Origin: Terriglobia bacterium
Lineage (GTDB): Bacteria > Acidobacteriota > Terriglobia > Terriglobales > Acidobacteriaceae
Length of the DNA stretch: 64,000 nt
Reading direction: 5' to 3'
Assembly: GCA_020073665.1 (NCBI GenBank)
Contig: JAIQEU010000001.1
Span: forward strand, 62,001-126,000
Shown here: piece after piece, positions 2,037 to 35,262 of the stretch
Position numbering within the stretch: position 1 is the stretch's first letter
How the letters are laid out: every line of letters starts with the position of its first letter
Made by a program: the position numbers and the translations under genes
Notes under the pieces: generated by a model
Database searches by the model: none
Seen by the model: only the letters and a program-made list of their open reading frames with translations
What the model was told of the DNA's origin: nothing

Positions 2037-3107
2037 TTAGTCGGCAGCTGCACCCTGATTGGGCATTGGTTCAGCACGCCGCCGCGACGACCCGTTCGCT
2101 GGAAGACCCGCATCGCGGATCTTGTACAACAGCGCCCGGTAACTGATGCTCAGCGCACGCGCGGCTTGCTTGCGGTTCCAGTGATTGGCTTGCAGTACTT
2201 TCAAAATGACTTTGCGTTCCAGTTCGCGCACCGCCTGCCGGGTGAGCTTCTTAAGCGAGATGGGGCCATCCAGATTGATCTCGGGATTGAAGTACTCCTG
2301 CTCGCGCGAAACCAGGTCGGTGGTGATCACGTCTTCGTTGCCCAGAATCACGTAGCGTTTGATCAGGTTCTCCAGTTCGCGGATGTTGCCCGGCCAATGG
2401 TATTTCTGCAGGATCGCCATCAGGTCCGACGACAGCGCCCGCGCCCGGCAGTTGTACTTCCGGTTGTAGTATTCCAGGAAATACTGGGCCAGGTCTTCGA
2501 TGTCGCCCCGCCGTTCGCGCAGTGCCGGAAGGCGCAGATTCACCACGTTAATGCGGTAGAACAGGTCTTGGCGGAAGGTGCCGTTTTCGATTTCGGTTTC
2601 CAGCACGCGGTTGGTAGCGCACACGATCCGGACTTCCACTTTCTTGTCTTCTTGCGCGCCGATGCGGCAGAATTGCCCGTCCTGCAGCAACTGCAACAGC
2701 TTCGACTGCAGGGCCAGATCTAGTTCCGAAATTTCATCCAGGAAAAGGGTGCCGCGGTGGGCCATTTCAACCCGGCCCGGCTTCATCCCGTACGCACCGG
2801 TGAAGGCGCCTTTCTCGTAACCGAAAAGCTCACTCTCCAGCAAGGTGCCGGGGATCGCAGGGCAGTTCACCTTCACGTAGGGGCCGCTTTTCCACGGTGA
2901 AAAACTGTGAATCATGCGCGCGATGATGTCTTTGCCCGTGCCGCTTTCCCCCTGGATCAGGACCGGTACGTTGGCGCCGGCTACCTTGTCGAGGCGCTCG
3001 CGGACCGCCTGCATGACGCTGGACCGGCCAAAAACTACAGCGTCCGGCGGAATCTCCCCTAATGACTGAACCAGGGAACTGACGGGATTTGTCGGTGCTA
3101 TTGCCAT
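2037..3107 (-). CDS. Sigma-54-dependent activator without receiver domain
   Basis: Enhancer-binding protein of 356 residues that remodels RNA polymerase-sigma-54 using ATP. It has a central AAA+ domain with Walker A GESGTGKD (53-60), the sigma-54 contact loop GAFTGA (100-105), Walker B LFLDEI (121-126) and the WPGNIREL motif (238-245). A Fis-type helix-turn-helix covers about 295-332. There is no N-terminal receiver, GAF or PAS domain, only about 28 residues before the AAA+ core, so activity must be set by a partner or by expression level. Its recognition helix is almost the same as that of the NtrC-type regulator at 5000-6427 (both contain WNRKQAA and ALLYKIR), so the two may bind the same sites. 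The flanking PEP-CTERM gene is a candidate target. Confidence 0.93.
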   Translation of the reverse strand: MAIAPTNPVSSLVQSLGEIPPDAVVFGRSSVMQAVRERLDKVAGANVPVLIQGESGTGKDIIARMIHSFSPWKSGPYVKVNCPAIPGTLLESELFGYEKGAFTGAYGMKPGRVEMAHRGTLFLDEISELDLALQSKLLQLLQDGQFCRIGAQEDKKVEVRIVCATNRVLETEIENGTFRQDLFYRINVVNLRLPALRERRGDIEDLAQYFLEYYNRKYNCRARALSSDLMAILQKYHWPGNIRELENLIKRYVILGNEDVITTDLVSREQEYFNPEINLDGPISLKKLTRQAVRELERKVILKVLQANHWNRKQAARALSISYRALLYKIRDAGLPANGSSRRRAEPMPNQGAAAD

Positions 3108-3195
3108 TTGGGCCCCAAGTCTCCTATGTGCAGAACTTTTATGTGCACCCCGAGAGCCAAACTCCTGCCCCCACCAGGCACACCCCTCAAATCGT

Positions 3196-3292
3196 GGTTA
3201 AACCTATTCTCTTTATGAGATTACGGCGATTATGATGGGTTGGGGATGGGCTCGAAGGACCGTAGAAGTCCGGCCCATACTATGGTTTAACC
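3196..3292. promoter_or_regulatory. Pair of inverted GGTTTAACC sites
   Basis: GGTTAAACC at 3196-3204 and its inverted copy GGTTTAACC at 3284-3292 lie in the gap between the PilZ gene and the sigma-54 activator. The second is extended to a near-palindrome, CTATGG...CCGTAG (3280-3296). They are suited to binding a dimeric regulator of the activator gene; no known regulator is recognised. Confidence 0.3.
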
Positions 3293-34486: not shown

Positions 34487-35164
34487 TTAGTCCGGCAGCT
34501 TCCAGAAATCCCCGACCAGGCCAATGCGTGCCAAAGCGGCTTTGGCTTCGGGAAGCGTTTTCGCACGCCATTGCGGACTAAGCCGATCGCTGTACCATTC
34601 CTGGGCCAGTTGCCAAACCTGCTTCAAGCTCATGGTCCCGCCCCGAGGCCGGTTCCATTGCCGGCACCAGCGGTCCGCATGCCGTTCCGACCGGAACAGG
34701 AGCATGGTCTTTCAAGTGAAAACGATATCCTGATACCAGTCGCGCGCGGGTACGGCAAAGTGGACCGTGCCTTTCTTCTCGACCAGCACGCCGTCCTTCA
34801 CGTGCAGCACCATCTGGTAATTGCAGCAGCCGCAGGCGGCGTCAATGCGCGCATCCTTGTGCAGCATCGCTGCGATCCCGAGAGCATCCCAGATACAGTT
34901 GCCGTACCAGAAGCTTTTTCCAACAGTGACAGGAAAAGCTGTGGGGACAGCAGAAAACGGGGCGGACCGCCACAGTTCTCCGTTTTCCTGCAGGACGAAA
35001 GCGTGGGTCTGGCACAGGCGTTTGAGTGCCGCCCTGGTGTGCGGCAGTGCCGACTTCAACGCCGCAGCCATTTCAGCGACGGTTGGCGCCCGGCCTTTGC
35101 GGAGGAAGTGGCGGTAGATAGAGAGGCGCAATTTGTTGTCAACGGCCGCGAAAGTCTTTCTCAT
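34487..35164 (-). CDS. MerB-like alkylmercury lyase, probable selenoprotein (in-frame TGA)
   Basis: A single frame of 225 residues if the TGA at 34714-34712 is decoded; 150 residues if it is read as stop. It resembles MerB, which breaks carbon-mercury bonds and protonates the carbon with Cys96, Asp99 and Cys159. Here NCIWD matches Cys96-xx-Asp99. After the TGA the frame goes on as KTMLLFRSERHADRW and MSLKQVWQLAQEWY, which fits the MerB C-terminus. Aligning LLFRS with MerB HFFAS puts the TGA exactly at Cys159. A hairpin with a GGTC loop follows (34678-34706), much like an fdhF SECIS. I infer selenocysteine at the catalytic position. The alternative is a Cys-to-stop mutation. AGGGG precedes the ATG at 35164. 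The real substrate may not be a mercurial. Confidence 0.75.
34678..34706 (-). promoter_or_regulatory. Putative bacterial SECIS hairpin
   Basis: Read on the minus strand: lower stem CATG/CATG, a CTC bulge on the 5' side, upper stem CTGTTCC paired with GGAACGG (one U-G pair), and apical loop GGTC. The loop starts 19 bases after the TGA; in Escherichia coli fdhF a GGUC loop starts 18 bases after it. Such hairpins bind the elongation factor SelB. The hairpin sits inside the reading frame, as bacterial SECIS elements do. Confidence 0.65.
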
Positions 35165-35262
35165 GGTTCCCCTGGAAACATCCTAACTGCCGCGTTGGCT
35201 GAATGCTGAGTGCTGAATACCCGAAGCTATTTTTGCACGTTTTCTTCTGCCAACTTTTCTGG

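Follow-up and report, generated by a model that had tools for sequence, protein, structure and literature searches.

Whether an in-frame TGA codon ends a gene or is decoded as selenocysteine (Sec) is the question raised by a locus on the reverse strand of the window, i.e., the whole stretch of 64,000 nucleotides that was analysed. A sequence-only reading had proposed that this locus encodes a homologue of the organomercurial lyase MerB, carrying Sec in place of a catalytic Cys.

The gene and its internal TGA codon

The frame that runs from the ATG at 35164 to the TAA at 34487 contains a single stop, the TGA at 34714-34712, at residue 151 of 225; apart from this codon it is uninterrupted, as the sequence-only reading had stated. 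The features considered here are the following.

34487-35164, reverse strand: Sec-MerB gene, from ATG (35164) to TAA (34487), 225 residues, with the predicted Sec at residue 151
34712-34714, reverse strand: in-frame TGA, putative Sec (U151), equivalent to the catalytic Cys159 of MerB, based on conservation of the UGA column and on alignment
34895-34897, reverse strand: codon of C90, equivalent to Cys96 of MerB, invariant in the 15-row alignment A1 and placed by alignment with solved MerB
34886-34888, reverse strand: codon of D93, equivalent to Asp99 of MerB, identical in all 11 rows of alignment A2 that hold Sec forms
34955-35146, reverse strand: N-terminal part of the MerB fold, helical and winged-helix-like (residues 7-70), based on predicted helices and a structure match
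35168-35173, reverse strand: possible ribosome-binding site AGGGGA just 5' of the ATG, from reading of the sequence only

Membership of the Pfam family MerB (PF03243) was indicated by the curated profile cut-off (27 bits), as the read-through protein scored 104.7 bits over residues 70-191. Both halves are MerB-like, as had been claimed, with scores of 60.2 bits for the part before the TGA and 27.8 bits for the part after it, each above the cut-off. Similarly, the profile alignment with solved MerB, from which the MerB residue numbers were counted by hand, placed C90 on Cys96, D93 on Asp99, and the UGA-encoded residue on Cys159. This agrees with the earlier claims that the first half carries a CxxD motif (C90-x-x-D93) and that the TGA falls on the catalytic Cys159. 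As regards the catalytic residues of MerB, the equivalents of Cys96 and Asp99 are present and the UGA residue occupies the site of Cys159; the window protein has TUK where MerB2 has TCK.

Conservation among relatives and selection downstream of the TGA codon

An order-level survey retrieved a relative in 15 of 298 genomes, ten of them with exactly one internal TGA, four full-length without a stop, and one (G225) fragmentary, the latter consisting of two contig-end fragments that do not reach the UGA column and that were left out of the Sec and Cys counts. At the phylum level, 20 of 396 genomes matched alignment A1, four of which were common to the order-level set. An additional relative from a contig collection (L024) was counted as the 23rd Sec form beside those of 22 genomes, and L028, L025, and L026 were counted as duplicates of L023, L029, and L032. 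In total, UGA occurred in a single alignment column in 23 full-length sequences (22 from genomes of 12 families, plus L024), whereas the eight non-UGA relatives had Cys (seven sequences: L037-L040, L054, L061, and L062) or Trp (L057) in this column. The in-frame UGA is thus aligned with a Cys conserved in homologues, as is expected of a selenoprotein. Stops at varied positions, which the sequence-only reading had named as evidence against its proposal, were not encountered among these sequences, and its argument that a stop at the reactive Cys site is hard to explain as chance is strengthened by the presence of the UGA in the same column in all 23 UGA-bearing homologues. Furthermore, the equivalents of Cys96 and Asp99 were retained in 23 of 23 Sec forms, and the residue preceding the predicted Sec was Thr or Asn in every one of them.

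The part after the UGA showed dN lower than dS in 12 of 12 pairs (dN 0.055-0.306, dS 0.311-2.165, ratio at most 0.31), these pairs being hand-chosen from 253 possible ones and several dS values being near saturation. In addition, many residues 3' of the UGA did not vary among the 11 Sec forms aligned in A2. The purifying selection indicated by dN/dS makes it very probable that the part after the UGA is translated and useful.

Several relatives deserve separate mention. In L057 (genome G448), the Sec codon is replaced by TGG (Trp) and the Cys96 equivalent is lost, while the genome keeps selA and tRNA-Sec; this sequence is probably a non-catalytic descendant. The apparent second TGA codons of L048 and L056 and the TGA of L062 are ordinary terminators that the search had read through; at the catalytic column, L062 carries Cys. 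On plasmid 1 of Rubrobacter radiotolerans (NZ_CP007515.1; L064, 3953-4420), a 270-base annotated merB ends at a TGA whose context, VFA-U-ANILLL, is the same as in the Sec forms; the later similarity resumes in other frames, so that this gene resembles a Sec form from a different phylum that has decayed or been misread. A search of phage records and viral contigs retrieved no relatives.

A SECIS-type hairpin downstream of the TGA codon

The sequence-only reading had noted a strong hairpin after the TGA, and this observation holds, with the addition that the structure is conserved with compensatory changes.

34682-34699, reverse strand: predicted bacterial SECIS-type hairpin with a 7-bp stem and the apical loop GGUC (34692-34689)

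In the window, the stem starts 12 bases after the UGA and the loop lies 19 nucleotides after it, with a predicted energy of -8.2 kcal/mol. Across 21 distinct sequences, 95.2% of the cells were paired, 11 cells were changed on both sides, and the covariation score was 0.295. None of 500 shuffles equalled the observed values for pairing, for double-change cells, for further pair types, or for the covariation score, while the fifth covariation measure, the number of pairs with a double change (three), was attained in 25 of 500. With slid controls, pairing was 59.2% at most. These statistics are favoured by the fact that the structure was picked on the same sequences.

Codon usage points in the same direction. 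The loop Arg codon was CGG in 20 of 22 sequences and the loop Ser codon TCG in 21 of 22, versus 25% and 32%, respectively, at other positions of these genes; L061 and L062, being distant, were excluded from this codon comparison. CGG-TCG occurred at the loop position in none of the eight non-UGA relatives. Likewise, GGTC at a spacing of 19 with a stem of at least 5 bp was present in 20 of 23 Sec forms, compared with 1.2 on average when the same peptides were recoded with synonymous codons. A bSECIS rule with an energy limit, taken from PMC13188914 and simplified here to unbroken stems, was passed by the window and by 16 of 23 Sec forms, versus a mean of 3.8 and a maximum of 9 in 200 rounds of synonymous recoding. 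Among the eight non-UGA homologues, three (L054, L057, and L062) passed the looser form of this rule and two (L054 and L057) the stricter one. An Rfam scan of 141 bases gave no match. The Rfam model SECIS_1 did not match the window's genome either, a result that is weakly informative because none of its 14 controls matched. In the relative L034 (genome G135), an insertion of ten residues directly follows the hairpin, which is itself intact.

Selenocysteine machinery and the decoding of the TGA codon

The sequence-only reading had called for a search for selA, selB, selC (tRNA-Sec), and selD, and had named their absence as refuting; all four were found in the window's genome (5.42 Mb in 62 contigs), with scores of 533.2 bits for selA, 383.5 bits for selB, and 70.6 bits for tRNA-Sec, the anticodon of the latter being TCA according to ARAGORN. 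The selD gene (L018, 1501-1600; contig C47, 45138 onward) has its own in-frame TGA near the start (U11 in the translated fragment), and, judging from this codon, the selenophosphate synthetase of the window's organism is probably a selenoprotein as well. Because selD too has an in-frame TGA, UGA is apparently used as Sec in at least two genes of the organism.

A selA gene above the cut-off was present in 21 of 22 Sec-form genomes versus 3 of 20 non-carriers (Fisher P 9e-8), the non-carriers all belonging to the window's family, 12 of them to one genus, and not being randomly drawn. The remaining Sec-form genome (G145) had no selA match and did have tRNA-Sec. At E 1e-9, tRNA-Sec was found in 20 of 22 Sec-form genomes, i.e., in all except G321 and G464, which are both selA-positive, and in 3 of 20 non-carriers (G004, G014, and G035, judged by profile match). 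A further match, in G028, was called tRNA-Ile by ARAGORN and was dropped from the count. Hence, each of the 22 Sec-form genomes contained selA, tRNA-Sec, or both. The seven Cys-form genomes were divided, as neither marker exceeded its cut-off in G052, G079, and G193, whereas both did in G232, G596, G365, and G636.

Three readings of the locus do without Sec. According to one of them, the gene is a pseudogene or a natural truncation, with translation ending at the TGA and a decaying 3' part. TGA does serve as stop in other genes, as this reading would have it, but the UGA falls on a single column in all 23 genes (of which 22 belong to genomes representing 12 families), there is one internal stop only, dN is lower than dS downstream in all 12 chosen pairs, many residues 3' of the UGA are invariant, and the Sec machinery is present, which makes this reading extremely improbable. 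Still less probable is a sequencing or assembly error that turned a Cys codon (TGC or TGT) into TGA, the error that the sequence-only reading would have had checked in read data; comparison of assemblies took the place of reads here, and the same TGA was found in separate assemblies of 22 genomes and in one further contig, and the loop codons of the UGA forms were seen in none of the eight non-UGA relatives. On these comparisons, both pseudogene and sequencing error can be regarded as effectively excluded. Insertion of Trp or Cys at the TGA by an ordinary tRNA, through reassignment or readthrough, would fit the TGG (Trp) codon of L057, but that sequence is also without the Cys96 equivalent; moreover, TGA is the terminator in 8 of 11 Sec-form genes, and neither the conservation of the hairpin nor the co-occurrence with selA and tRNA-Sec would be explained. 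It is as improbable as decay of the gene. The reading as Sec is therefore preferred: as judged from sequence comparison, the window gene almost certainly encodes a selenoprotein, in which Sec would be inserted at the UGA in the cell.

Fold and phylogeny

The AlphaFold2 model of the window protein (mean pLDDT 88.4) has predicted helices at residues 7-23, 29-36, and 40-53. The best solved structure was mercury-bound MerB2 (5c17; Foldseek E 1.1e-11), with MerB next. Structural alignment of the predicted model covered nearly its whole length with 5c17 (Z 18.9, 191 aligned residues, rmsd 3.4) and gave Z 14.9 with 3f2f (179 aligned residues, rmsd 4.2). As modelled, the window protein is of the MerB fold.

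A midpoint-rooted tree was built from 37 rows. Of these, 31 formed one group, which comprised the 23 Sec forms together with L057 and seven Cys forms with CxWC (including the plasmid genes L063 and L121); it was split with a support of 100/96 from the plasmid MerBs L122-L125 and from L061 and L062. The seven CxWC Cys forms constituted one group (support 100/99). The Sec label required three changes on the tree as drawn, in which the branching order of the Sec lineages and the CxWC group is poorly supported; the tree may be compatible with a single origin of Sec. The Sec form L036, from a genome of the window's family (G145), fell into a group of four rows whose other members come from three different families (support 100/98), suggesting horizontal transfer.

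Gene neighbourhood

The neighbourhoods of 27 loci (22 Sec-form loci and five others; L024 was left out) were surveyed over approximately 6 kb on each side, or less at contig ends, with the neighbouring reading frames chosen mechanically. No gene cluster was shared by more than three genomes among these loci, and those genomes were close relatives. Similarly, among the 25 commonest of the 97 Pfam families matched by 104 neighbour proteins, none was matched by more than three proteins, and an NCBIfam scan of ten neighbours yielded no Sao match at E 1e-10. In the window, the gene and a CTP synthase gene lie back to back, the latter being a neighbour in G072 and G151 too (the Pfam family CTP_synth_N had three members among the neighbour proteins), and a reading frame of 386 residues comes next on the other flank of the gene. 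MerA exceeded its curated cut-off in one of 22 Sec-form genomes (G321), the best match in the window's genome reaching 326.6 bits, below the cut-off of 454.45. This absence of a conserved neighbourhood and the occurrence of MerA in one of 22 genomes do not indicate a classical mer pathway, and the genomic context gives an organomercury role no support.

Proposed function

The mechanism of MerB, which involves Cys96, Asp99, and Cys159, is known in atomic detail. The locus is very probably a functional selenoprotein gene for an enzyme of the MerB fold with Sec at the Cys159 position. In the proposed course of events, SelB with Sec-tRNA-Sec would bind the hairpin 19 nucleotides downstream and decode the UGA at 34714-34712 as Sec, giving a 225-residue enzyme. 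In analogy to the MerB reaction, the substrate would be an alkyl-metal compound, most likely organomercury, whose metal is attacked and held by Sec151 and Cys90. The proton that breaks the carbon-metal bond would be passed on by Asp93, as it is by Asp99 in MerB; the alkane would then leave, and a partner with a thiol or selenol group would take over the metal. With Sec, the nucleophile has a lower pKa, and this residue may change the rate or the substrate range of the enzyme. Organometal lyase activity is probable on the strength of this analogy; for mercury as the natural substrate, the case is evenly balanced.

A selenoprotein of the MerB fold could also perform another task, such as the binding or sensing of soft metals, for instance Hg(II) or As(III), or a redox reaction. 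This alternative would be in line with the lack of a conserved neighbourhood, the occurrence of MerA above its cut-off in one of 22 Sec-form genomes, and the low scores of ten Sec forms (27.2 to 52.8 bits) relative to the cut-off of 193 of the MerB equivalog NF009710. In addition, Sec binds Hg very tightly, which could slow turnover. It is unlikely, as the equivalents of Cys96 and Asp99 are retained in all 23 Sec forms, and L057, in which Sec is replaced by Trp, is also without the Cys96 equivalent, as would be expected of a shared catalytic site. The Sec-dependent lyase is the preferred reading. It is conceivable, albeit somewhat doubtful, that the Sec forms represent a widespread Acidobacteriota lineage of Sec-dependent organometal lyases that use Sec at the Cys159 position, with Cys and Asp as partners, to demethylate methylmercury or other alkyl-metals or alkyl-metalloids without MerA. 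Their genes would stand singly, would sometimes have been transferred horizontally, and would be retained in genomes capable of decoding Sec.

With a Sec-dependent lyase, the selenoproteome of a major phylum would gain an active site of the lyase type. Since natural Sec and Cys forms exist and the mechanism of the family is known, the effect of selenium on carbon-metal cleavage is directly testable. If methylmercury is a substrate, annotation that stops at the UGA would hide part of the methylmercury-degrading potential of a bacterial community.

Comparison with known systems

The window protein resembles MerB (PF03243; 3f0o, 3fn8, and 5c17) in its predicted fold over nearly the whole length and in having the equivalents of Cys96 and Asp99 and the site of the third catalytic residue. 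It differs from MerB in the predicted Sec in place of Cys159 and in its low identity (17-21%) in structure alignments with MerB entries. It also misses the cut-offs of the NCBIfam MerB equivalogs NF009710 (41.8 bits versus a cut-off of 193) and NF033555 (30.3 versus 200).

Another related group are the Cys forms of the CxWC clade (L037-L040, L054, the Paraburkholderia plasmid gene L063, and the Sphingomonas plasmid gene L121), which are of similar length and belong to the same 31-row group as the Sec forms. These have Cys at position 151 and Cys instead of Asp at position 93, whereas the Sec forms combine CxWD with Sec; three of the five carrier genomes tested contained neither tRNA-Sec nor selA above the cut-off. 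The two sites are not strictly coupled, because the distant MerBs (L061, L062, and L122-L125) pair Asp with Cys. On the Jiella pelagia plasmid that carries L125, a gene annotated as encoding a GDCCVxC domain-containing (seleno)protein (3007-3231) lies near merB and a merT-family gene.

A Sec-containing relative of MerB has been described before, a point that the sequence-only reading did not mention. PMC13188914, citing Haft and Gwadz (2023), lists the MerB-like SaoL (NF040728, motif CU) as a Sec family, and under the accession NF040728 PMC9312934 likewise lists a Sec protein, described as alkylmercury lyase MerB-like. MerB did not turn up as a term in the main texts of PMC12013277, PMC5029168, and PMC2398784, and among the literature records listed for selenoproteins, MerB, SaoL, and Acidobacteri, none concerned the present lineage. 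SaoL and the present lineage are alike in being MerB-like with Sec, which in the present lineage is predicted. However, the window protein scored 44.6 bits against NF040728, versus a cut-off of 140, and of the nine other Sec forms scanned, eight matched at 32.9-41.4 bits and L060 did not match at E 0.001. Furthermore, SaoL is listed with the motif CU, whereas Thr or Asn precedes Sec in 23 of 23 Sec forms, and it belongs to a SAO operon with other Sec proteins, an operon of which no trace was found among the neighbours surveyed at the present loci. The scores below the SaoL and MerB cut-offs and the Thr or Asn instead of Cys before Sec point to a separate lineage. With a Sec-containing MerB relative, SaoL, already in print, what is new here, as judged from these sequence comparisons, is a second lineage of predicted Sec-containing MerB relatives.
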